This document shows, piece by piece, positions 45,175-56,123 of a stretch of DNA of 64,000 nucleotides. The translations under genes were made by a program, and so were the position numbers. The notes beneath the pieces are model-generated. The model saw nothing but the letters and a program-made list of their open reading frames with translations, was not told the origin of the DNA and searched no databases. The stretch covers positions 50,723 through 114,722 of the forward strand of contig CACYWN010000015.1 in the NCBI GenBank assembly GCA_902778105.1. Reading direction: 5' to 3'. This DNA is from an uncultured Bacteroidia bacterium (GTDB lineage: Bacteria; Bacteroidota; Bacteroidia; Bacteroidales; UBA932). How positions within the stretch are numbered: position 1 is the first letter of the stretch; every line of letters starts with the position of its first letter.

Positions 45175-46260
45175 ATGGCGGACAAGTGCGGATTCAATAT
45201 CTCCGGCATCCAGCAGGTGGGCGTCGGAACGGAAAACTTCAGGAAATCCTGGAACTGGTTCATCGAAATGTTCGGTACGGACATCCGGATTCTGGAAGAT
45301 GACACGGTAGCGGAGCGCATGCTTCCCTACACGGGCGGGCAGCCGCAGAAACGGCATGCCTGCATCGCCGTAAACCTGCAGGGAGGCGGCGGTTTCGAGA
45401 TCTGGCAGTATTCGGAAAGGAAACCGCAGCCGGCCGGTTTTGATGTCGCAGCCGGCGACCTGGGCGTTTTCGCCGCCAAGGTCAACTGCCGTGACGTGGC
45501 CGCCTGCCAGAAGGCCCTTTCCGCCAAGTGGGAAGCGGTGAGTGCTCCGTCCACTCTTCCGGACGGGACGCCTTGTTTCTACGTGAAGGACCTGTACGGC
45601 AACTGTTTCCAGCTGGTAGAGACGGATTTCCTGTACATCGACGAAGGAAAACTGACCGGCGGGATGGCAGGCACCGTGGTCGGAGTGACCGACATGGAGA
45701 AATCCATCGCCTTCTACCGCGGGATCCTGGGTTATGATTCCGTGAAATACGATGAGACCGGGGTGTTCGGAGACTGGTCCCTCCTCCCCGGTGCCGACGG
45801 AAGGTTCCGCCGGGTGCTCCTGGCCCCGTCGAAGCCCCGCCACGGCGCCTTCTCCGGACTGATGGGTCCGGACTGCATCGAACTGGTGCAGGCTTTGGAC
45901 CGCACTCCCCGGAAAATTTACGAAGGACGCTACTGGGGCGATCCCGGCTTCATCCAGATCTGCTATGACGTTACCGGGATGCGGGAACTGGAGAAGTTCT
46001 GCGCGGAAAAGGGCCATCCCTTCACCGTGGACAGCTGCCCGGGCGGCATCACTTTCGACATGGGCGACGCTTCCGGCCACTTCACCTACATCGAGGATCC
46101 GGACGGCACGCTCATCGAGTTCGTCGAGACCCACAAGGTACCGGTCGTGAAGAAGCTGGGCTGGTACATCGACATGAAAAAGCGCAATCCTTTGAAGCCC
46201 CTCCCGAAGTTCCTGTTCCGGGCGATGGGGCTCGTATCCCGTGAAAAAGTAAAACCTTAA
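45175..46260 (+). CDS. Two-domain VOC (glyoxalase/dioxygenase fold) protein
   Basis: 361 residues from ATG 45175 (MADKCGFNISGIQQVGVG). Two vicinal-oxygen-chelate domains are visible: the first starts 'QQVGVGTENFRKSWNWFIEMFG' and ends 'GNCFQLVETDFLY', the second starts 'GTVVGVTDMEKSIAFYRGILGYDSV' and ends 'TYIEDPDGTLIEFVETHKVP'. VOC proteins bind metal and act as isomerases, dioxygenases or lyases; no specific member is recognised. The C-terminal 'DMKKRNPLKPLPKFLFRAMGLVSRE' is basic and may contact a membrane or acyl substrate. It is the first gene of the operon with the acyltransferase and SDR genes, so a role in the same lipid pathway is plausible. Confidence 0.75.
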   Translation: MADKCGFNISGIQQVGVGTENFRKSWNWFIEMFGTDIRILEDDTVAERMLPYTGGQPQKRHACIAVNLQGGGGFEIWQYSERKPQPAGFDVAAGDLGVFAAKVNCRDVAACQKALSAKWEAVSAPSTLPDGTPCFYVKDLYGNCFQLVETDFLYIDEGKLTGGMAGTVVGVTDMEKSIAFYRGILGYDSVKYDETGVFGDWSLLPGADGRFRRVLLAPSKPRHGAFSGLMGPDCIELVQALDRTPRKIYEGRYWGDPGFIQICYDVTGMRELEKFCAEKGHPFTVDSCPGGITFDMGDASGHFTYIEDPDGTLIEFVETHKVPVVKKLGWYIDMKKRNPLKPLPKFLFRAMGLVSREKVKP

Positions 46261-46271
46261 CCATAACTGCT

Positions 46272-47487
46272 ATGCAGACAGATATTTTTGAGAAAATACG
46301 CCGTTCCACCGGCGGCCCCATCGGCCAGTATCGCGACAAGGCTGACGGTTATTTCGCATTTCCCAAACTCGAAGGCGAACTCGGTCCCCACATGCGCTTC
46401 GCCGGGAAGGAAGTCCTGTGCTGGAGCCTGAACAACTACCTGGGCCTCGCGAACCATCCCGAGATCCGCAAGGTCGATGCCGAGGCCGCCGCCCGCTGGG
46501 GTATGGCCTACCCGATGGGAAGCCGCATGATGACCGGCCAGACGGTCCTCCACGAGAAGTTCGAGCGGATGCTCGCCGATTTCGAGAAGAAAGAAGCCGC
46601 ATTCCTGTTCAACTTCGGCTATCAGGGCATCCTGTCCACGATCGATTCCCTGGTGAGCCGTCACGACGTCATCGTCTATGATGCCGAATGTCACGCCTGC
46701 CTGCTGGACGGTATCCGCCTCCATATCGGCGCCAAGTTCAAGTTCCGTCACAACGACGCGAAGGACTGCGACCGCGTCCTCGCCCGCGCCACCAAGGTGG
46801 CCGAGGAAAGCGGCGGCGGCATCCTCGTGATCACCGAGGGCGTGTTCGGCATGACCCTTCCGCTTCATGATCGACGACGCCCATGGCTTCGGCGTGATGG
46901 GCCCCCACGGCCGCGGTACCTCCGAGCACTTCGGCGTGATGGACGGCGTGGACCTGTACATCGGTGCCTACGCGAAGGCGATGGCTACCATCGGCGGCTT
47001 CGTCGCTTCCGACAAGGACATCATCGACTACCTGCGCTACAACATGCGCTCCCAGATCTATGCGAAGTCCCTGCCGATGCCCATTGTGGAAGGCTGCATC
47101 AAGCGTCTTGAGATCATCGACAGCCCCGAAGGGGACGAGCGCCGCGCCCACCTGTGGAAGGTGACCCGCCGCCTGCAGGAAGGCTTCCGCGAGCTGGGCT
47201 ACGACATCGGCCCGGCCGAGGCCTGCGTGACCCCGGTCCACATGGAGGCCGGCCTGGAGCAGGCGACGAACATCGTCGTGGACCTCCGGCAGAACTACCG
47301 CATCTTCTGCTCGGTCGTCATCTATCCGGTCATCCCGCTGGGCATGGTCATCTTCCGTATCATTCCGACGGCCGCCCATTCGATGGAGGATGTCGAGCGA
47401 ACCCTCGCCGCCTTCAAGGAGATCAAGGAGCGGCTGGACCGTGGCGAATACGACAAGCCCATTCCGGACATCTCCCTGTACAAGTAG
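46272..47487 (+). pseudogene. SPT/AONS-family PLP acyltransferase, likely cysteate acyltransferase (CAT/SulA-like), broken by a frameshift deletion
   Basis: Two frames together make one alpha-oxoamine synthase: 'SLNNYLGLANHPEIRK', 'MAYPMGSRMMTGQTVLHEKFER', 'HDVIVYDAECHACLLDGIRLHIG', 'ITEGVFGM' in the first, then 'RFMIDDAHGFGVMGPHGRGTSEH', the PLP lysine in 'AYAKAMATIGGF' and the C-terminal domain in the second, which reads through to 47487. At about 46851-46866 GVFGM is joined almost directly to the FMIDDAHG block; about 17-20 residues are missing and the frame shifts. The family condenses an acyl-thioester with an amino acid; beside a cysteate synthase, cysteate is the likely substrate. Either a true pseudogene or an assembly/sequencing error. 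Confidence 0.8.
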
Positions 47488-48273
47488 ATGGAGAGGGTCT
47501 GGATTACAGGTGGTTCTTCCGGGATCGGGGAAGCCTGTGCATACCGCTGGGCCGAAGGAGGGGCGCGTCTCGTGCTGACGGCCCCTACCACGGAGGAACT
47601 GGAGCCGGTGGCCGCCAGGTGCCGGGAGAAAGGTGCTCCCGAGGTGGTTGTCCTGCCCTATGACCTCAGCCGTCCGGAGGGGATTCCGTCCCTGGTCCAG
47701 GCGGCCTGGCAGGCTTTCGGGGGTCTGGATATCACCTATCTGAACGCCGGTATCAGCCAGCGCACGTCCGTGGAGGACACGTCCATGGAAATGCTCCGGA
47801 CCCTGATGGAAATCGATTATTTCGCCCCGGCCGGCATCGCAAAGGAACTTCTCCCGCGCATGGTGGAGTGCGGCGGCGGCCATATCGCCGTGACGACCTC
47901 CATCGCCGGCAAGTTCGGTTTCCGGCTCCGGTGCGGCTACTGTTCCGCCAAGGCCGCCCTGTACGGGTTCTTCGAGACCCTGCAGGCGGAATCCTATGAC
48001 AAGGGCATCCGGGTGACGATCGTCTGTCCGGGCCGTGTCCGGACGAACATTTCCCTCCGCGCCCTGGACAAGGGCGGGAAGCCCCATGGGAAGATGGATC
48101 CCGGCCAGGCGGGCGGCATCACCGTCGAAAAGGCCTCCCGGATCATTGTGAAGGCTGTCCGCAAGGGACGCCGCGAGGTGCTCGTGGGCAGCAAGGAGTT
48201 GATCATGGTGTATATCAAGCGCTTCTTCCCGGGCCTCTGCGCCCGTCTGGCGAGAGTCATCAAGCCGATGTAG
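47488..48273 (+). CDS. SDR oxidoreductase, likely 3-ketocapnine/3-ketosphinganine reductase
   Basis: 261 residues, beginning directly after the acyltransferase stop. The Rossmann motif is 'WITGGSSGIGEA' (residues about 5-16) and the catalytic triad Ser about 138, Tyr151, Lys155 sits in 'TTSIAGKFGF...GYCSAK' ('YxxxK'). The C-terminus 'IMVYIKRFFPGLCARLARVI' is a hydrophobic, basic helix, as in membrane-associated short-chain reductases that act on 3-keto lipids. Next to a serine-palmitoyltransferase-like enzyme, reduction of the 3-keto intermediate to a 3-hydroxy long-chain base is the natural job. Substrate identity (cysteate- or serine-derived) is inferred from context. Confidence 0.75.
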   Translation: MERVWITGGSSGIGEACAYRWAEGGARLVLTAPTTEELEPVAARCREKGAPEVVVLPYDLSRPEGIPSLVQAAWQAFGGLDITYLNAGISQRTSVEDTSMEMLRTLMEIDYFAPAGIAKELLPRMVECGGGHIAVTTSIAGKFGFRLRCGYCSAKAALYGFFETLQAESYDKGIRVTIVCPGRVRTNISLRALDKGGKPHGKMDPGQAGGITVEKASRIIVKAVRKGRREVLVGSKELIMVYIKRFFPGLCARLARVIKPM

Positions 48274-48275
48274 CC

Positions 48276-48971
48276 ATGGACCATCTTTTCGAGGAACTGG
48301 AGAAAGACTACCGCTTCAAGGAAGGGTATCACACGTGCATCAACTGTGGCACGTGCACGGCCATCTGTCCGGCCGCGGAGTTCTACCGGTACGACCCCCG
48401 GAAGATCGTCACCATTGTCCAGACACGGGATGACGCGCAGATCGAGGCGCTCCTCAAGTCCGATACGATCTGGTACTGCGGGGAATGCATGAGCTGCGTC
48501 ACGCGCTGTCCCCGGAAAAACGGTCCGGGCATGGTGATCATGGCCCTGCGGGACCTGAGCATCCGGCTGGGTTTTTTCGCCGAATCCGAAAAGGGCCGTC
48601 AGATGCTTCCACTTACCCGCACCTTCGCCCGGAACATCCTGGAATACGGTTACTGCGTATATCCGGAGACCTTTGACTGGAACGACCACAAGGAGTCCGG
48701 TCCGGTTTGGAAATGGCATATGGACCACCTGGACAAGAGTCTGGCGCGGCAGGGTGCCAACTATAAGGGAGATGGCCCCGGTGTCCTCCGGAAGATTCCG
48801 CAGGAGTCCCTGGATGAACTTCAGGCCATTTTCGACGTGACCGGTGCCACCCGGCGGATCGAACTGGTGGAGGAGTTCTCCCGCAAGAAGGCGGAGCAGA
48901 TGGGCCTCTCGATGGAAGAATATGCGAAAACGGCGTTCGAATACAGTTCGGACAAACATTTCAACGAATGA
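48276..48971 (+). CDS. HdrC-like 4Fe-4S ferredoxin subunit
   Basis: 231 residues. Two tetracysteine motifs are spaced as in HdrC: 'CINCGTCTAICPAAEF' (about residues 21-36) and 'CGECMSCVTRCPRKNGPG' (about 69-86). The rest is a helical C-terminal region without further cysteine motifs. HdrC passes electrons between HdrA-type flavoprotein and HdrB-type CCG-domain subunits. It sits 2 nt after the SDR gene and overlaps the following HdrB-like gene by 4 nt, marking the start of a five-gene Hdr-like unit. Confidence 0.85.
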   Translation: MDHLFEELEKDYRFKEGYHTCINCGTCTAICPAAEFYRYDPRKIVTIVQTRDDAQIEALLKSDTIWYCGECMSCVTRCPRKNGPGMVIMALRDLSIRLGFFAESEKGRQMLPLTRTFARNILEYGYCVYPETFDWNDHKESGPVWKWHMDHLDKSLARQGANYKGDGPGVLRKIPQESLDELQAIFDVTGATRRIELVEEFSRKKAEQMGLSMEEYAKTAFEYSSDKHFNE

Positions 48972-50038
48972 TCTACGAGGGAAAGCAGAAGATCTGGAAG
49001 GACTACCAGAAGGAGATCCCGGACGACCATTGGTACTATGTCCGGAGTTGCATCCGGCAGAATTTCTTCCCGGCCAGCGAGCGCAAGTTCACGGACATCA
49101 CGCAGCAGATGCTGGGAAAGGACGTCTATGAAACCCCTTACCACACCACCTGCGGAGGCATCGCCTATCACTGCGACGCCATCCCGCAGGAGACGGTGAT
49201 GACCATTGTCGCCCGCCAGTTCGCCCTGATGACGGAAGCCGGATACGAGAATTACGTACCGAGCTGTGTCACTTCGTTCGGCAATTATGTCGAAATCCTG
49301 GAGACCTGGCACGAATTCCCGGAACTGGAGACCCGCATCCGGGAGCAGCTGTGGAAAGCCTGCCGCCGCGAATTCAAGAAGCCCAAGTACCTGGCCCATA
49401 CGAGCGACCTCATCTACCATTGGCGGAATGAGATCGCGGAGAAGGCCAGGGTCCGTCTCATCGACAAGGAAACGGGCGAGCCGGTCCGGATGGCCGAGCA
49501 TATCGGCTGCCATTATGCCAAGATGTTCCCGTCCAAGGGAATCGGCGGCGCCGAGTACCCCTATGTCCTGGCGGGAATGATCGAGAGCTGGGGAGGTCAG
49601 GTCGTGGACTATCCCGAGCGCCGGCATTGCTGCGGCTATGGCTTCCGGCAGTACCATATGAAGGCGAACCGCGGCTACTGTGTCTCCAATACCCACAAGA
49701 AATTCGAGTCCATGGAGCCGTACGGGATCCAGGCCATCCTCACGAACTGCCCGGGATGCTGCTACTTCATGGACCGCTGGCAATATGTCATCGCCGAGCA
49801 GACCGGCAAGACCTACGGAAAGGACGGGTTCGGCATTCCGGTGTTCACCTACGAGGAACTCGCCGGTCTGGTGCTGGGCTACGATCCCTGGGACCTGGGC
49901 CTTCAGCTGCACCAGGTGGCCGTGGAGCCTTTCCTGGACCGGATCGGCGTGGAATACGACCCCAAGGCGAAATATCTGGGTCTCAACAGGGAGGATATCC
50001 TCCGGCCCGAACTTCCCACCAACCTCAAATGTTTTTAG
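48968..50038 (+). CDS. HdrB-like CCG-domain protein
   Basis: 356 residues with two cysteine-rich (CCG) blocks. The second is complete: 'HIGCHYAKMFP' near residue 180, then 'RHCCGYGFRQ', then 'TNCPGCCYFM'. The first is less well conserved: 'YHTTCGGIAYHCD' and 'YENYVPSCVTSFGNY'. HdrB holds noncubane 4Fe-4S clusters in such motifs and is where the disulfide is reduced in methanogens. The ATG overlaps the HdrC stop (ATGA). The second motif pattern fits a redox thiol/disulfide active site; the actual substrate in a bacterium without coenzyme M or B is unknown. Confidence 0.85.
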   Translation: MIYEGKQKIWKDYQKEIPDDHWYYVRSCIRQNFFPASERKFTDITQQMLGKDVYETPYHTTCGGIAYHCDAIPQETVMTIVARQFALMTEAGYENYVPSCVTSFGNYVEILETWHEFPELETRIREQLWKACRREFKKPKYLAHTSDLIYHWRNEIAEKARVRLIDKETGEPVRMAEHIGCHYAKMFPSKGIGGAEYPYVLAGMIESWGGQVVDYPERRHCCGYGFRQYHMKANRGYCVSNTHKKFESMEPYGIQAILTNCPGCCYFMDRWQYVIAEQTGKTYGKDGFGIPVFTYEELAGLVLGYDPWDLGLQLHQVAVEPFLDRIGVEYDPKAKYLGLNREDILRPELPTNLKCF

Positions 50039-50041
50039 AAG

Positions 50042-51055
50042 ATGAAGGAGAACGTTGTGGTCATCGGCGGCGGCGTAGCCGGAATGGAGGCAGCCAGACA
50101 GTTGCTGCTTCTGGGGTACAATCCCATCGTGGTGGAGCAGCAGGACCATCTGGGCGGCCATGTGGCGCAGTGGAACTGCCTGTTCCCGGACATGGCTTCC
50201 GCCGGGGACCTGGTCCGGAACCTTGGTGACGGGATCACCGACGCGAACATCTTCCTGGAGACGCGGGTGACCTTTGTCAACCGTCTCCAGGAAGGCTATC
50301 TGGTCATGCTCAGCAACGGCGTGAACATAGCCTGCCGCGCCATCCTGGTCGCTACCGGCTTCAAGCTGTTCGACGCGGCCCGGAAAGAGGAGTACGGGTA
50401 TGGCGTATATGACCATGTCGTGACGAACGCCGACCTGGAGTCGTGGTTCAACGGAAATACCAGCGACCGTTTCCCCGAGGCCCCCAGGAGCATCGGGTTC
50501 GTCCATTGTGTCGGTTCGCGGGATCTCAAGGCCGGGAACAGCCAGTGCTCGAAAGTGTGCTGCATCACGGCGGTCAAGCAGGCGATCGAGATGAAGGAGC
50601 GTTTTCCGGACGCCCGGGTTTTCTGCTTCTACATGGACCTCCGCCTGTTCGGCAAGAAGTACGAGGACTTCTACATCCGGGCCCAGCAGGAATTCGGAAT
50701 CCAGTTCATCCGGGGACGTGTCTCCGAGGTAGGCGAGACCCTGGACGGCCGTCTGCAGGTCAAAGCGGAGGATACCCTGTCCGGGAAGCCGCTGAAAGTG
50801 CAGCTCGACCTGCTGGTCCTGATGGCCGGGATGTCCTGCAACCCGGACGTGGCCGATCTGGCGCGGATGGCCCGGCTGGACATTGACAGCGACGGCTTCC
50901 TGAGGAGCCGGGACAACCTGGGCGGAATCAACGCCTCGAACCGCCCCGGCATTTTCTATGCCGGTGCCTGCACGGGCGCGAAAACGGTTCCGGAAGTCTT
51001 GGCCGAGGCCCGTTCGGCCGCTTTGGCCATTCACCGATACATGACAGGACGATGA
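50042..51055 (+). CDS. HdrA-like FAD-binding protein (short form)
   Basis: 337 residues. The FAD-binding motif is 'VVVIGGGVAGMEAARQL' at the N-terminus; the HdrA-type unusual cluster block is 'FVHCVGSRDLKAGNSQCSKVCCITAVKQA' (about residues 153-181); the C-terminal FAD block is 'NRPGIFYAGACTGAKTVPEVLAEARSAALAI'. Methanogen HdrA is roughly twice this length, with an extra domain and terminal ferredoxins that are missing, so this is QmoA/short-HdrA-like. It should transfer electrons between NAD(P)H or ferredoxin-linked donors and the HdrB/C subunits. It is 3 nt after HdrB and overlaps the next gene. Confidence 0.85.
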   Translation: MKENVVVIGGGVAGMEAARQLLLLGYNPIVVEQQDHLGGHVAQWNCLFPDMASAGDLVRNLGDGITDANIFLETRVTFVNRLQEGYLVMLSNGVNIACRAILVATGFKLFDAARKEEYGYGVYDHVVTNADLESWFNGNTSDRFPEAPRSIGFVHCVGSRDLKAGNSQCSKVCCITAVKQAIEMKERFPDARVFCFYMDLRLFGKKYEDFYIRAQQEFGIQFIRGRVSEVGETLDGRLQVKAEDTLSGKPLKVQLDLLVLMAGMSCNPDVADLARMARLDIDSDGFLRSRDNLGGINASNRPGIFYAGACTGAKTVPEVLAEARSAALAIHRYMTGR

Positions 51056-51369
51056 CGGATTTCGGATTCAAGCTTTCCAAGAGCGCCACCCTGGACCTGG
51101 ACAAGGCGGACACCGGACTGTACGAAAGACTGTGCAGCCTGGAACCAGATGCACGCATCTGCATGAACTGCGGTTCCTGCAGCGCTACCTGTACTGCCGC
51201 CCCGTTCAGCGGGATGAGTCTCCGGAAGGTCATCCTGGGACTCCAGCGCGGGCAGGACGTCCGGCCCATGCTTCAAGGTTGCATGCTCTGCGGAAAATGC
51301 TCCATGGTATGTCCCCGCGGCATCAATACCCGTCATTTGCTATTGACTTTGTGCAGGATCTATGATTGA
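51052..51369 (+). CDS. Second, small HdrC-like 4Fe-4S protein
   Basis: 105 residues. It has two tetracysteine motifs: 'CMNCGSCSATCTAAPF' and 'CMLCGKCSMVCPRG'. It is about half the length of the first HdrC-like protein, lacking the C-terminal helical extension. It overlaps HdrA by 4 nt and the membrane subunit by 8 nt. The natural role is to wire HdrA to the membrane HdrE-D fusion, while the first HdrC serves HdrB. Confidence 0.85.
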   Translation: MTDFGFKLSKSATLDLDKADTGLYERLCSLEPDARICMNCGSCSATCTAAPFSGMSLRKVILGLQRGQDVRPMLQGCMLCGKCSMVCPRGINTRHLLLTLCRIYD

Positions 51370-53191
51370 GCGCTTCTCATCCGGCTTCCATCCGTTCGTG
51401 CTCCCTTTCCTGGCGGGCATGGTCTTCGTGCTGGGCTATTGCGTCTACGGCATCGTCCGGATCCTGTTCCAGTTGACGGGGGAGGACCGCCGCCGATTCT
51501 TTCTGTCCCTCGTCACGCCCAGGACGGCGCTGAAGAATGTCAAGGACATTTTCTGTGACTGTCTTCTCCATGTGAAACTGTGGAAGCGGAACCGGATGCT
51601 GGGTTTCATGCATTCGAGCATCGCTTTCGGGTGGTTCATGATCATCGTCCTGGGCCACGTGGAGGTGATGCTGTTCCTCCCCGAGCGCATCCGCTTGTTC
51701 TACTATCCGATCTTTTTCAACTTTTTCGTGGCGGAAACGGATTCCACCATCCAGGGGTCGCTCCTGTTCTTCCTGATGGACTTCTTCCTGCTGGTGATCC
51801 TGATCGGTATCGCCCTGGCGATGGTCAAGCGTGTCCGCTCCCGCCTGTTCGGCATGCGGCGCACGCCCCGTCCATCCCTGCTGAACCAGATCGGGCTCTA
51901 TTCCCTGTGGGCCATCTTCCCGCTCCGGCTGCTTGCCGAGAGCTTTACGGCCCATATCAGCGGCGGCTCTTTCCTGACCATTCCTGCCAACTGGGTATTC
52001 CGTCAGTTCCTGGGCAACGACCTGAACATGCTCCCGACCTGGTGGGCCTATTCCATCGCGCTGGGCGTGTTCATGTCCGTGCTGCCTTTTACGCGGTACA
52101 TGCACATCCCTGCCGAGATGATGCTCATTCCGATGCGGAATGCCGGGCTGAAGGTCCGGAATGCCCGCAAGGGATTTGCCCGTGTGCAGGTGTACTCCTG
52201 CCCGAACTGCGGCGTGTGCATCGACGCCTGCCCGATGAGCGTGGACAAGGCCAATCTCAAGGACTGCACCGTGTACCTGACCCGCCAGATGCGGCGGGGG
52301 AATGAGCGGCGGATTGCGGAGATCAGCGACAAATGCCTGCTGTGCGGAAAATGCGAGGCGGTCTGCCAGGTGGGCGTGGAAGGACCGAAGCTCCGGCTGT
52401 TGAACCGTGCTGAACGGAAGTACGCCGTGAAAGCCGATTATTCCGGGATTCCGGCCGCATCGCTGGCCGAGGCCGCGAAAGGCGGCAAAGTCCTGTATTA
52501 CGGCGGCTGCATGAGCCAGTTGGTGCCCTCTGTCGGCCGGAGCATGGAATCGATTTTCCGGAAAGCCGGCGTGGATTATACCTGGATGGACCGGGACGGC
52601 GGCGTCTGCTGCGGCAGGCCGATGCTGACGGCCGGGCGCCTGGAGGAGGCGCGGAAAATCGTCCGGAAGAATACGGAGGTCATCCTGGGATCCGGGGCCG
52701 AAACGATGGTGGTCAGCTGCCCCATCTGCTACAAGATGTTCACGGAGGAATACGCGCTGCCGGGTATCCGGGTAGTCCATTATGCCGGCTATATGGAGGA
52801 ACTGCTGAAGGAGGGCCTTCTGGTCCCTTCCCGGAGCGACCTCTGCTATGTATACCACGACCCTTGCGAATTGGGACGGGGCTGCGGTATCTACGAAGAG
52901 CCCCGACGCTTGCTGGGCAAGCTGGCAGGCATCGCCGAAGCCGAGAAAAACCGCGCCGAGAGCGTCTGCTGCGGTGGCTCCCTGGGCTCCTTGACGCTTT
53001 CTTTCGCCAAACGCGAGAAGATCACGCGGGCAGCCCTGGAGAATCTGTATACCAGCAAGGCGGATGCCATCGCGACCGCCTGCCCGCTCTGCACGGCCAC
53101 CTTCGCCCGCTATGCCGACCGCCCGGTCCGGGACCTGGCGGAGATCGTGGACAGGCAGACCGTTGGAAAACTAAAACTTGAAACGATATGA
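51362..53191 (+). CDS. HdrE-HdrD-like fusion (membrane quinone-linked CCG protein; DsrMK/HmeCD/TmcB-like)
   Basis: 609 residues. The first about 240 residues hold five membrane helices with conserved His ('FHPFVLPFLAGMVF', 'MHSSIAFGWFMIIVLGHVEV', 'LLFFLMDFFLLVILIGIALAMV', 'YSLWAIFPLRLLAESF', 'WWAYSIALGVFMSVLPFTRYMH'), like the cytochrome-b-type HdrE/DsrM subunit. Then come two 4Fe-4S motifs ('CPNCGVCIDACPM' from Cys280; 'CLLCGKCEAVCQVG' from about 325) and two CCG domains ('YYGGCMSQLV...GGVCCGRPM...VSCPICYKMF' from about 378; 'YHDPCELGRGC...SVCCGGSLG...ATACPLCTATF' from about 497), as in HdrD/DsrK. It is expected to couple the menaquinone pool to a cytoplasmic thiol/disulfide or sulfur reaction. 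Its stop overlaps the cysteate synthase start. Confidence 0.85.
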   Translation: MIERFSSGFHPFVLPFLAGMVFVLGYCVYGIVRILFQLTGEDRRRFFLSLVTPRTALKNVKDIFCDCLLHVKLWKRNRMLGFMHSSIAFGWFMIIVLGHVEVMLFLPERIRLFYYPIFFNFFVAETDSTIQGSLLFFLMDFFLLVILIGIALAMVKRVRSRLFGMRRTPRPSLLNQIGLYSLWAIFPLRLLAESFTAHISGGSFLTIPANWVFRQFLGNDLNMLPTWWAYSIALGVFMSVLPFTRYMHIPAEMMLIPMRNAGLKVRNARKGFARVQVYSCPNCGVCIDACPMSVDKANLKDCTVYLTRQMRRGNERRIAEISDKCLLCGKCEAVCQVGVEGPKLRLLNRAERKYAVKADYSGIPAASLAEAAKGGKVLYYGGCMSQLVPSVGRSMESIFRKAGVDYTWMDRDGGVCCGRPMLTAGRLEEARKIVRKNTEVILGSGAETMVVSCPICYKMFTEEYALPGIRVVHYAGYMEELLKEGLLVPSRSDLCYVYHDPCELGRGCGIYEEPRRLLGKLAGIAEAEKNRAESVCCGGSLGSLTLSFAKREKITRAALENLYTSKADAIATACPLCTATFARYADRPVRDLAEIVDRQTVGKLKLETI

Positions 53192-54471
53192 GATTCGAAC
53201 CTACCAAGTACGTCCTGAAGAACGTCGGCACCGGCCGTGAATTCGAGGACAAGGGATGGACGATGAGCGACCCGGAAGGCGGCGCCCCTTCCCTCGTCCG
53301 GGCTGTCTATGACAACAAGCGGTTCGACCCGCGGGAAGACCAGGACGGCATCTACCGCTACGCGGACTGGATGCCCATCAAGCGGACACTCCGGAAGTCC
53401 TGTGCCCCGGTGACGTATAAGTCCAAGGGACTGGCCCAGTTCCTGGGCCTGGAGAACCTGTATATCACTTTCTCGGGGTGGAATCCCCGGATCGGCGCCA
53501 AGATGCGCACCTGTTCCTTCAAGGAGACGGAGGCGTACTCCGTCCTCGCCCGCATGGACGCTCGCGAGAAGCGGATCCTGATCGTCCAGTCAGCCGGCAA
53601 CACCGCCCGGGCCTTCGCCCAGGTATGCTCGGACAACCGTATTCCCATCGTCATCTGCGTGCCGGAAGACAGCCTGCACGACCTTTGGTTCCGCCGTCCG
53701 CTCCGCTCCTGCGTGAAGCTGATCGCCGTTCCGCACGGATGCGACTACTACGACGCCATCACCCTGGGCGAGAAACTGGCTTCCGATCCCCGCTATATGC
53801 TGGAGGGCGGCGCCAAGAACGTGGCCCGGCGTGACGGCATGGGTACGACCGTCCTCAGCTGCGTGGAGAAGATGGGCCGCATCCCCGACGCCTATTTCCA
53901 GGCCGTGGGTTCCGGTACCGGCGCCATCGCCGCTTGGGAGAATGCCTGCCGCCTGGCCGAAGACGGCCGCTTCGGGGAGAACAGGATGCGCGTGTATGTG
54001 GCCCAGAATGAGCCATTTACACTGATGTACGACTCCTGGAAGGCCGGCTCCCGTGCGCTCGTGGACCTGGATCCCGAGAAGGGACGGCACGAGGCCGAGG
54101 TGGTCCTCGCCAGCGTCCTTTCCAACCGGAAACCGCCTTACAGCCTCGCCGGTGGCCTGTATGACACGCTCAAGGCCAGCGGCGGCGACTTCTATCTCGC
54201 CAGCAACAACGACATCATCTACTGGCTCCTCCAGTTCCGGAACCGGGAAGGGTATGACCTCCTTCCGGCGTCCTGCGTGGCCGTGACCGCCCTCGCCAAG
54301 GCCGTCCGGGAAGGGGCCGTGAAAAAAGACGAATACATCATGCTCAACTGCACCGGCGGCGGTGTCCTCGGGGCCATGGCCCGCGGTTTCACCCTCAAGG
54401 ATCCCGACCTGGTCCTTTCCCCGGACCTCCCGGCCGAAGAGATCGTCTCCCGCGTGAGCGCCCTGTTTTAA
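53188..54471 (+). CDS. Cysteate synthase (threonine-synthase-like PLP enzyme)
   Basis: 427 residues. I recognise the cysteate synthase family, a threonine synthase paralogue that makes L-cysteate and phosphate from O-phospho-L-serine and sulfite (the first step to coenzyme M in Methanosarcina and to sulfonolipids in some Bacteroidota). The N-terminus has the family's 'TKYVLKNVGTGREFEDKGWTM' and 'QDGIYRYADWMP'. The PLP lysine is about Lys112 in 'TCSFKETEAYSV', phosphate-loop 'AVGSGTGAIAAWE' binds PLP phosphate, and 'LNCTGGGVLGAM' closes the site. It overlaps the membrane Hdr gene by 4 nt, making it part of the same translational unit. Threonine synthase proper is less likely because of the context and the SFK(E/D) pattern. 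Confidence 0.85.
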   Translation: MRFEPTKYVLKNVGTGREFEDKGWTMSDPEGGAPSLVRAVYDNKRFDPREDQDGIYRYADWMPIKRTLRKSCAPVTYKSKGLAQFLGLENLYITFSGWNPRIGAKMRTCSFKETEAYSVLARMDAREKRILIVQSAGNTARAFAQVCSDNRIPIVICVPEDSLHDLWFRRPLRSCVKLIAVPHGCDYYDAITLGEKLASDPRYMLEGGAKNVARRDGMGTTVLSCVEKMGRIPDAYFQAVGSGTGAIAAWENACRLAEDGRFGENRMRVYVAQNEPFTLMYDSWKAGSRALVDLDPEKGRHEAEVVLASVLSNRKPPYSLAGGLYDTLKASGGDFYLASNNDIIYWLLQFRNREGYDLLPASCVAVTALAKAVREGAVKKDEYIMLNCTGGGVLGAMARGFTLKDPDLVLSPDLPAEEIVSRVSALF

Positions 54472-54501
54472 ACCTTCGTCATTCTGATAATCCGAACCGA
54501 A

Positions 54502-55842
54502 ATGAAAACGAACCTCTCCAAACTTTACAAGACCGAAGACTGGCTGGCCGTCTGGATCGGCTTCGCCGTCATCGCCATCGCGTGCATCGCGGTGCTTACC
54601 GGCGCCTTTGATTTCGCCGCCGCCAAGTTCTCCACCTGGCACCTGTGGGAAGATGTCGCCGAGAAAAAATCGCTCCTGGCGCAGCTCAATGGTGCTTTTT
54701 GGGTGAAACTGCTCCGCACATTCCTGGTGCTGGGCGTCCTGTTCACCCTGGGCGTGAAGCTTCAGGGCGGCAAGGTGAAGGAATACATCCCCGCTTTCCT
54801 GTGCCTGTTCGTCCTTGCCGTCGTCGTCCGGCTCATCAGCGCCGAGTTCACCCTGAACCGGTATCTGGAATGGGCCTTCTGGGCGCTCATCGTTGGCCTG
54901 CTGATCTCCAATACCGTGGGCGTCCCCCAGTGGCTCCGGCCCGCTATCCGGACCGAGTTCTATATCAAGACCGGCCTCGTGATCATGGGCTTCTCGGTGC
55001 TGTTCAGCAACATCGCCAAGTTCGGCCTCTATGGACTGGGCATCGCCTGGATCGTCACGCCCATCGTCATCATCTTCATGTGGTGGTTCGGGACGAAGGT
55101 CCTGAAGATCGGCAACAAGCCGCTCGTCATCACCCTCGCGGCGGCTACCTCCGTCTGCGGCACCTCCGCGGCCATCGCCACGGGTGCGGCCGCCGGCGCC
55201 AAGAAGAATGATCTCGGGATCGCCATTTCCATCTCCATCATCTTCACCATCCTGATGATGGTGTTCGAGCCCATGATCATCCGGGCGACCGGCATGAGCC
55301 AGCTGATGGGCGGCGCCCTGATCGGCGGTACGGTCGATTCCACCGGTGCGGTGGTCCTCGCCGGCAACGCCCTGGGACCGGAGGCCGAGCAGGCCGCGGT
55401 TCTCGTCAAGAGCATCCAGAACATCCTCATCGGCTTCATCGCCTTCTTCGTGGCCCTGTTCTTCGCCACCCGCGTGGACAAGACCGAAGGGAAGAAAGTG
55501 GGCGCCGGCGAGATCTGGAACCGTTTCCCGAAATTCATCATCGGCTTCTTCGTGGCTTCCCTCGTGGCCTCCTTCCTGGTCCAGCCCCTGGCCGGGACCG
55601 ACAGCGTGAAGGCCATCAACGGCGTGCTGGACCAGTACAAGAACTGGTGCTTCGTGCTGGCGTTCACCTCCATCGGCCTGGATACCAACTTCCGGGAGAT
55701 TGCGAAGCAGATGCAGGGCGGCAAGGTCCTGTGGCTGTATGTCGTGGGCCAGCTCTTCAACATCGCCCTGACCTTCTTCGCGGTGTGGCTGCTCCTGTCC
55801 GGCGTCCTGTTCGAGATTCCGGTACTGGATCTGTACAAGTAA
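54502..55842 (+). CDS. YeiH-family (putative sulfate/sulfite exporter) membrane protein
   Basis: 446 residues and about eleven membrane helices. It belongs to the YeiH/PSE family (UPF0324), in which pairs of Gly-rich helices such as 'VCGTSAAIATGAAAGAKKNDLGIAISISIIFTI' and 'MGGALIGGTVDSTGAVVLAGNALG' are conserved. The family is annotated as putative sulfate exporters, with sulfite or other small sulfur oxyanions also discussed; direct evidence is thin. Lying directly after cysteate synthase, which consumes sulfite, transport of a sulfur oxyanion fits. It starts 30 nt after the cysteate synthase stop and overlaps the next gene by 1 nt. Confidence 0.8.
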   Translation: MKTNLSKLYKTEDWLAVWIGFAVIAIACIAVLTGAFDFAAAKFSTWHLWEDVAEKKSLLAQLNGAFWVKLLRTFLVLGVLFTLGVKLQGGKVKEYIPAFLCLFVLAVVVRLISAEFTLNRYLEWAFWALIVGLLISNTVGVPQWLRPAIRTEFYIKTGLVIMGFSVLFSNIAKFGLYGLGIAWIVTPIVIIFMWWFGTKVLKIGNKPLVITLAAATSVCGTSAAIATGAAAGAKKNDLGIAISISIIFTILMMVFEPMIIRATGMSQLMGGALIGGTVDSTGAVVLAGNALGPEAEQAAVLVKSIQNILIGFIAFFVALFFATRVDKTEGKKVGAGEIWNRFPKFIIGFFVASLVASFLVQPLAGTDSVKAINGVLDQYKNWCFVLAFTSIGLDTNFREIAKQMQGGKVLWLYVVGQLFNIALTFFAVWLLLSGVLFEIPVLDLYK

Positions 55843-56123
55843 TGGATAAACGGCGGCGGAATACGCTGTTCAAAGTGGTCACGGCCCTTGCGGTCGTGGC
55901 CATTTTGGGCTGTGCCGTCTATATCATGGTGAACCGGCTGGGCCTCTCTCCGGACTACGATTTCGGCGCCGGGGCCTACTATTATGCCGATATCCCCGGG
56001 TTCGACAAAGTGGTCCGGGACGACGTTTATCACACGAAGGTCCCGGTCTGGATCCATATCGTCCTTTTCCTGGCCTGGGGCTGGCTGATGTACCGGCTCT
56101 GGGTGTGGATTGACAATCGGTAG
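55842..56123 (+). CDS. Small two-helix membrane protein of the sulfonolipid/Hdr-like operon
   Basis: 93 residues beginning at an ATG in a TAATG overlap with the YeiH stop. Helix 1 is 'FKVVTALAVVAILGCAVYIMV' and helix 2 'VWIHIVLFLAWGWLMYRLWVWI', separated by a tyrosine- and aspartate-rich stretch ('DYDFGAGAYYYADIPGFDKVVRDDVYHTKVP'). No known family is recognised. It could be an accessory subunit of the transporter or of the membrane Hdr subunit. Tight coupling to YeiH suggests the former. Confidence 0.65.
   Translation: MDKRRRNTLFKVVTALAVVAILGCAVYIMVNRLGLSPDYDFGAGAYYYADIPGFDKVVRDDVYHTKVPVWIHIVLFLAWGWLMYRLWVWIDNR

Follow-up and report, generated by a model that had tools for sequence, protein, structure and literature searches.

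In the enzyme families that build the sulfonolipid base, cysteate is made by cysteate synthase from sulfite and phosphoserine, SulA couples it to an acyl group, and the ketone is reduced by a short-chain dehydrogenase (SDR); cysteate synthase requires sulfite for its reaction. Sulfonolipids are described, in the available sections of two reports (PMC9304779, PMC11211663), as lipids that Bacteroidota, gut species among them, have in the outer membrane and that are suspected of affecting the host. The sulfur-oxidising heterodisulfide reductase-like (sHdr) systems are known from a different context. According to the accessible part of PMC11582611, type I is encoded as shdrC1-B1-A-H-C2-B2 in one syntenic cluster and type II as shdrC1-B1-A-H-B3 with etfAB in one cluster, and in the available text of PMC10332631, sHdr is said to be almost always accompanied by LbpA, exceptions being very rare. 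In this report, we are discussing a locus in which genes of both kinds meet, namely positions 45175-56123 (plus strand) of a 64,000-nucleotide stretch of DNA (the window) from an uncultured Bacteroidia bacterium (Bacteroidales; UBA932), where five heterodisulfide reductase (Hdr)-like genes lie within an operon for sulfonolipid-base synthesis.

The assignment of the locus as a sulfonolipid-base operon, together with the linkage of its Hdr genes to sulfonolipid synthesis, is well supported. Such an operon had been proposed in an earlier note on the same DNA, and the genes named there are all present, in the order and on the strand given; its figure of ten genes, however, disagrees with its own list of eleven, which is the number found here when the acyltransferase is counted once. 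From the acyltransferase through the cysteate synthase, the intergenic distances range from -8 to +3 nt. The sulfonolipid part of the proposal is borne out by the cysteate synthase, which scores above the TIGR03844 cut-off (Table 1) and has PDB entry 9k3c, "Cysteate synthase" (503 bits), as its best solved relative, and by the matches of the acyltransferase to SulA. The intact acyltransferase of the relative L150 (L denotes loci and G genomes) matches 7u7h with 567 bits, 28eh ("Cysteate-C-fatty acyltransferase") with 545 bits and serine palmitoyltransferase (SPT) with 223 bits, being nearer to SulA than to SPT, and the position of Lys281 is also occupied by Lys in the window. In the accessible portion of PMC9304779, 7U7H is given as the SulA of Alistipes finegoldii. 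The window's own acyltransferase gene had been described as frameshifted. Its frame is indeed broken, into two; the cause is a single 50-nt gap in comparison with all eight aligned relatives (L150-L157), each of which is intact, and a true deletion and an assembly fault are indistinguishable here.

The arrangement is conserved in the window's family. Among 149 family genomes, 62 carry short HdrA and 73 carry cysteate synthase, with both in 53, the synthase only in 20, HdrA only in nine and neither in 67 (Fisher p = 1e-14, without correction for kinship). In 48 of the 53 genomes that carry both, the start of the synthase gene lies 2.0-5.7 kb downstream of HdrA in the same orientation, and in the remaining five the two genes lie on different contigs. 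This adjacency leads us to reject chance neighbourhood. It also disposes of the objection that Hdr might stand beside cysteate synthase in this genome only, because the arrangement recurs across the family. In a FastTree tree of the synthase (94 rows), the Hdr neighbour changed at least seven times and the YeiH neighbour at least three times.

Beyond the family, the association is with SulA. A sample of the order (295 genomes from 119 families, also reduced to one genome per family) was scored for short HdrA (full length, with a frame near 340 aa, hand-picked among the matches listed), for SulA (E <= 1e-100) and for TIGR03844 synthase (above cut-off), which were found in 91, 209 and 80 genomes, respectively. 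SulA is present in 85 of 91 Hdr-positive vs. 124 of 204 Hdr-negative genomes (p = 1e-9); when each family is represented by a single genome, 37 of the 119 families have short HdrA, and SulA is present in 36 of these 37 vs. 52 of 82 without Hdr (p = 3e-5). In two order genomes, G081 and G141, the coordinates place SulA less than 8 kb from HdrA. While the Hdr-SulA association is order-wide, Hdr directly next to cysteate synthase itself is seen in the window's family only. SulA is the better marker, because other lineages appear to use another pyridoxal phosphate (PLP) lyase. This second PLP lyase (149 bits to NF006050 and 109 to TIGR03844, whose cut-off is 324.9) has a start that looks zinc-ribbon-like and adjoins SulA and Hdr in three loci of other families (L144, L145, L147) and in two of another genus of the window's family (L126, L248); an SDR or VOC gene is found in some of these loci, and their gene orders differ. 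Replacing TIGR03844 beside SulA and Hdr, it is a candidate for a second type of cysteate synthase.

If Hdr makes sulfite, it should be favoured where the route from sulfate to sulfite is missing. As a marker for that route we used PF01507, which we take to comprise CysD, CysH and some other enzymes, at a threshold of E <= 1e-20 in the 209 SulA-positive genomes of the order sample. Hdr is present in 30 of 40 genomes lacking PF01507 vs. 55 of 169 having it (p = 1.5e-6), and in 14 of 18 vs. 22 of 70 when the 88 SulA-positive families are represented by one genome each (p = 8e-4). Including genome size as a term of the model gives p = 8e-4 for the enrichment.

Gene content within the family follows the same prediction. 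The sample comprised 50 synthase-bearing genomes (G000 plus 49 of 72 chosen loci), for which the Hdr state was taken from the locus in 19 and from the genome search for short HdrA in the others. PF01507 is found in three of them: as a pair in G469, as one gene in G467 and as one weak match in G444. The G469 pair (C2:44439-47208) consists of two genes side by side, whose lengths match CysH and CysD, and is the only such pair in the 50 genomes. The sulfite reductase domain PF01077 (E <= 1e-6) was found in none of the 50. YeiH, encoded downstream of the synthase in the window, is present in 37 of the 50 and missing from 11 of 29 Hdr-positive vs. two of 21 Hdr-negative genomes (p = 0.047). The two Hdr-negative genomes without YeiH are G469, with its CysD/CysH-like pair, and G446, in which the contig breaks off within the synthase gene, ahead of the place expected for YeiH. 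Neither YeiH nor a CysD/CysH-like pair is present in 11 of 29 Hdr-positive vs. one of 21 Hdr-negative genomes (p = 0.008), so that 49 of the 50 carry Hdr, YeiH or such a pair. The window's YeiH lies well above the PF03601 cut-off of 24.5 bits and below that of TIGR00698 (85.8 vs. 232.6 bits). It would offer an alternative or additional membrane route for sulfite or a related anion; as a strict alternative to Hdr it is weakly placed, with the above p = 0.047 by counts and no significance on the tree.

Taken with the anatomy of the Hdr set, these data suggest the following mechanism. The five Hdr genes would encode a membrane-anchored relative of sulfur-oxidising sHdr, in which a persulfide or other sulfane sulfur on HdrB1 would be oxidised to sulfite at HdrB1/HdrA. 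Electrons would pass via HdrA together with HdrC1 and HdrC2 to the HdrD part of the membrane fusion, from there to its HdrE cytochrome-like part and finally to the quinone pool, with menaquinone as the likely species, and the sulfite would be consumed by the cysteate synthase encoded adjacently. Our preferred reading, to which we assign a probability of roughly 60%, is that Hdr feeds cysteate synthase by oxidising sulfane sulfur to sulfite, with quinones taking up the electrons; what we infer in it are the reaction and its direction as well as the identity of the sulfur donor and of the quinone. The potentials of the HSO3-/HS- couple (about -116 mV) and of menaquinone (about -74 mV) allow the oxidative direction. 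A sulfite-supplying Hdr had already been suggested in the earlier note, and both the enrichment in genomes lacking PF01507 and the gene-content pattern of the family came out as it would predict, with the production of sulfite itself staying an interpretation. The complex, thus read, probably makes the sulfite for sulfonolipids from reduced sulfur without oxygen.

HdrA (337 aa) has 6tjr_A (349 aa), presumably the Hyphomicrobium sHdrA, as its best PDB match, over 325 residues (E 3e-61). All eight cluster cysteines of the HdrC1-like protein are at least 95% conserved among 65 sequences, and the HdrC2-like protein has eight conserved cysteines (53 sequences). The structure model of HdrB aligns with HdrB 5odc_B at a TM score of 0.84 by target length, and the protein is strongly conserved, with 58-84% identity to 15 relatives that belong to several families. 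Of its two CCG motifs, the C-terminal one is intact (C181, C221, C222, C261 and C264, conserved), and the N-terminal one is down to three conserved cysteines (C28, C62, C100). The HdrE-D fusion contains two CCG stretches plus Fer4 and matches DsrK and TfrB weakly; in 25 of 25 aligned sequences, the cysteines of the CCG and ferredoxin motifs are kept. The N-terminal part, in which H70, H84 and H248 are conserved, looks membrane-embedded from its sequence. The fusion is the probable quinone-reactive end. None of the set reaches the cut-offs of the methanogen HdrABC models (HdrA 247 vs. 1100, HdrB 123 vs. 450, HdrC 83 vs. 350 bits), and of the NCBIfam models listed for the fusion, none is matched at its cut-off, the DsrK equivalog (43.6 vs. 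400 bits) included.

Several observations weigh against this interpretation. The earlier note had called for comparing the co-occurrence of Hdr and cysteate synthase across genomes; strong in the family, it is weak at order level, where 33, 47, 58 and 157 genomes have both, TIGR03844 only, Hdr only and neither (p = 0.02). TIGR03844 synthase and short HdrA occur together in 30 genomes outside the family, in no case within 10 kb of each other, the closest pairs being about 20 kb (G156) and about 35 kb (G231) apart, and in many Bacteroidales (L130-L139, L141, L143) the Hdr set stands apart from SulA and synthase. SulA is also found in 50 of 63 control genomes with long HdrA only; part of the Hdr-SulA association is, therefore, background, and short and long-only HdrA differ in their SulA association at p = 0.012. 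PF01507 is a rough marker, since the family holds other enzymes too, and 55 SulA-positive genomes hold both Hdr and PF01507 genes. On the tree, the complementarity of Hdr and YeiH is not significant (six independent pairs, p 0.25-0.5). Finally, sHdr is described as depending on a lipoate-binding protein, yet no GCV_H (LbpA) domain was seen near 29 Hdr loci; this refers to 68 small open reading frames of 85-200 aa within 6 kb and to the 25 most frequent of their 70 Pfam families, the remaining families and whole genomes not having been searched.

The view of Hdr as part of the operon likewise holds in part: Hdr is a recurrent partner, but it is dispensable. Of 80 named synthase loci, 35 have Hdr directly upstream, 34 have none there, and 11 end at a contig border or were unscored. 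The Hdr-less loci with SulA come in two arrangements, VOC-SulA-SDR-synthase-YeiH and VOC-SulA-synthase-SDR-YeiH. In L153, the block matching 48244-53173 is absent as a clean 4.9-kb gap between flanks about 86% identical to the window. A search for short HdrA in 40 family genomes (E <= 1e-30, with L150 as positive control) found it in 15, namely that of L150, two with a Hdr-less SulA-synthase locus and 12 others. Thirteen of the 15 genomes with such a Hdr-less locus, thus, have no short HdrA anywhere, the exceptions being those of L171 and L186, which carry it elsewhere in the genome. Among the 24 genomes whose synthase adjoins neither Hdr nor SulA, 12 have short HdrA; in the 11 of them whose Hdr locus was retrieved (L230-L239, L242), it is separate from SulA and synthase. 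SulA itself is present in all of the 40 except G468. A requirement of the pathway for Hdr is, hence, rejected.

In the light of these points, other explanations have to be weighed. Sequence does not reveal the direction of the Hdr reaction, and the main rival, which we regard as unlikely, turns it around: with electrons from the quinone pool, Hdr would set free sulfite and a thiol by cleavage of a disulfide, a thiosulfonate or an S-sulfonate (RS-SO3-). A reductive Hdr would still serve cysteate synthase, from an S-sulfonate or thiosulfate-like donor, and predicts the same SulA linkage and the same enrichment in genomes lacking PF01507; the modelled fold of HdrB, resembling that of the disulfide-cleaving methanogen HdrB, is consistent with it. 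The nearest relatives of the core, however, are 6tjr and a cyanobacterial cluster beside a sulfide:quinone reductase (SQR), and the N-terminal CCG motif of HdrB keeps only three cysteines, both of which count against this rival. Somewhat less likely again is that Hdr forms a complex for anaerobic electron transfer or thiol redox chemistry in general, has no role in sulfite supply and was placed near sulfonolipid genes through shared regulation or lifestyle. The tendency of long-HdrA genomes to carry SulA, the many operons without Hdr and the solitary Hdr sets listed above would suit such a complex; it would not account for the recurrent clusters of Hdr and SulA, which differ in gene order and include two different PLP lyases, for SulA in 36 of 37 Hdr-positive families, or for the enrichment where PF01507 is absent.

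Two further explanations carry still less weight. Hdr could donate or remove electrons in a lipid modification after SulA, for instance of the acyl chain or the headgroup and involving the VOC protein, and its position directly after the SDR gene in many operons, together with the VOC protein having no known role, would agree with this. We consider it improbable, as VOC-SulA-SDR is complete in the Hdr-less loci L153, L155-L157, L159, L162 and L166, and a link with missing PF01507 would not be predicted. Removal of excess sulfite, or balancing of sulfur redox, by Hdr with YeiH exporting sulfur oxyanions has in its favour the name given to the YeiH family model, putative sulfate exporter. With 47 of 50 family genomes lacking PF01507, there is little evident reason for sulfite to build up, and with no sulfite reductase match in any of the 50, its disposal is no evident need of the group; this explanation is very improbable.

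A fuller version of our preferred reading is that gut and rumen Bacteroidales perform an anabolic, O2-independent sulfur oxidation by an LbpA-free membrane variant of sHdr, which would turn sulfide-derived persulfide into sulfite with menaquinone as acceptor and replace sulfate assimilation for sulfonolipids. This we advance tentatively, at slightly less than even odds. A literature search brought up no paper joining "sulfonolipid" with "heterodisulfide reductase", which is not to say that there is none in print, nor one joining "Cryptobacteroides" with "sulfonolipid"; among the matches listed, no title or start of an abstract links Hdr and sulfonolipids. Neither the SulA nor the ketoreductase paper uses the word "sulfite" in its available main text, and no stated source of sulfite for sulfonolipids in anaerobes without sulfate assimilation was found in the literature searched. 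For such anaerobes, the Hdr module, which many uncultured gut and rumen bacteria have beside or within their sulfonolipid genes, is a concrete candidate source. If true, Hdr-type sulfur oxidation would extend from energy metabolism to biosynthesis, and gut sulfide would be tied to this class of lipids; the question of the sulfite source is now testable by gene deletion and isotope labelling.

Table 1. Genes of the sulfonolipid-base operon in the window.
Gene product	Position	Strand	Evidence
VOC-superfamily protein, two-module fold	45175-46260	+	PF00903 37.5 bits
Cysteate fatty acyltransferase (SulA/CAT) homologue, 50-nt gap	46272-47487; frames 46272-47111 and 46867-47487	+	SPT/BioF families, for each of the two pieces
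SDR, candidate 3-ketocapnine reductase	47488-48273	+	PF00106 143.6 bits; function from position only
HdrC1-like protein, two CxxCxxCxxxC motifs	48276-48971	+	NF041779 83 bits (cut-off 350)
HdrB1-like protein, proposed catalytic subunit	48968-50038	+	model matches HdrB 5odc_B
Short HdrA-like flavoprotein, 337 aa	50042-51055	+	best PDB match 6tjr_A
Small HdrC2-like ferredoxin protein	51052-51369	+	Fer4 families
Membrane HdrE-HdrD (DsrM-DsrK-like) fusion, probable quinone-reactive end	51362-53191	+	CCG and Fer4 families
Cysteate synthase	53188-54471	+	TIGR03844 431 bits (cut-off 324.9)
YeiH-family (PF03601) transporter	54502-55842	+	PF03601 173 bits
Small membrane protein, 93 aa	55842-56123	+	reading frame only; start overlaps YeiH stop

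The nearest named records of the locus are metagenome-assembled genomes of rumen and gut Bacteroidales, with the synthase of L150 (RUG12703) 98% identical; more distant members of the group are Candidatus Cryptobacteroides, Cacconaster and Colimorpha. The VOC protein was modelled with AlphaFold (mean pLDDT 81.8); among known structures, the model resembles two-module proteins of the glyoxalase and dioxygenase types, and the structure search yielded this general two-module VOC fold and nothing more specific. Its gene recurs beside SulA both with and without Hdr and has no known sulfonolipid role. The part of the 93-aa protein from 55860 has no NCBIfam match, and scans of the window for Rfam families, tRNAs, promoters and terminators gave nothing useful.

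Other loci show further variation. A MarR-family gene lies by the Hdr or synthase genes in L111 (6302-6745) and about 20 other loci, on either strand, and likely encodes a local regulator; none was seen beside the window operon. A SulP-family permease gene directly follows the cysteate synthase in L111 (12876-14651) and, by clustering, in L104, L106, L118 and L122, representing a possible other anion supply. In G450 (L240), an intact Hdr set is located between fragments of SulA, SDR and cysteate synthase, the remnants of what reads as a decayed operon of the window's type. In a further group (L174, L190, L192-L194, L201-L203 and others), the synthase follows genes that look cation-exchanger-like and RNA-methyltransferase-like, and SulA is elsewhere in the genome.

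Compared with sHdr types I and II of Hyphomicrobium and other sulfur oxidisers, the Hdr set shares the C1-B1-A-C2 order, the short flavoprotein HdrA (325 of 337 residues align with 6tjr) and a HdrB1-like subunit with conserved CCG; for sHdr itself, persulfide-to-sulfite chemistry is proposed in the accessible parts of PMC11582611 and PMC6067878. In contrast to sHdr, the window operon is without Hyp, a separate HdrB2, EtfAB and LbpA. Type I is not matched, as the C1-B1-A-C2 order comes with no H and no separate B2, and there is no room for an H gene between A and C2 because the two overlap; nor is type II, with neither etfAB nor H in the window operon (the flanks of relatives were not searched for etfAB). 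Lacking H, B2 and etfAB, and with no LbpA-like gene seen nearby among the first 25 of the 70 Pfam families, the set is, therefore, not filed as sHdr. Its D/B3-like portion and a membrane HdrE-like portion form one fused protein. With the methanogen HdrED, DsrMK and QmoC-type modules this fusion shares a membrane domain and an iron-sulfur protein with two CCG domains; unlike them, it is a single polypeptide, under all listed NCBIfam cut-offs. Of the clusters compared, one on a plasmid of Picosynechococcus PCC 7003 (L262, 11242-16982) encodes HdrC1-B1-A-C2-B2 followed by SQR (333 bits to 3hyv), with no lipid genes and no LbpA among the 25 features listed. Its HdrC1, HdrB1 and HdrA are 45, 40 and 45% identical to those of the window; it differs by a soluble HdrB2 in place of the HdrE-D fusion and by the SQR alongside. 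With the known sulfonolipid pathway of Alistipes and Chryseobacterium, the window shares cysteate synthase, a SulA homologue and an SDR, here in one operon. The Hdr set may work like sHdr, yet it sits with an anabolic lipid pathway and not with energy metabolism.

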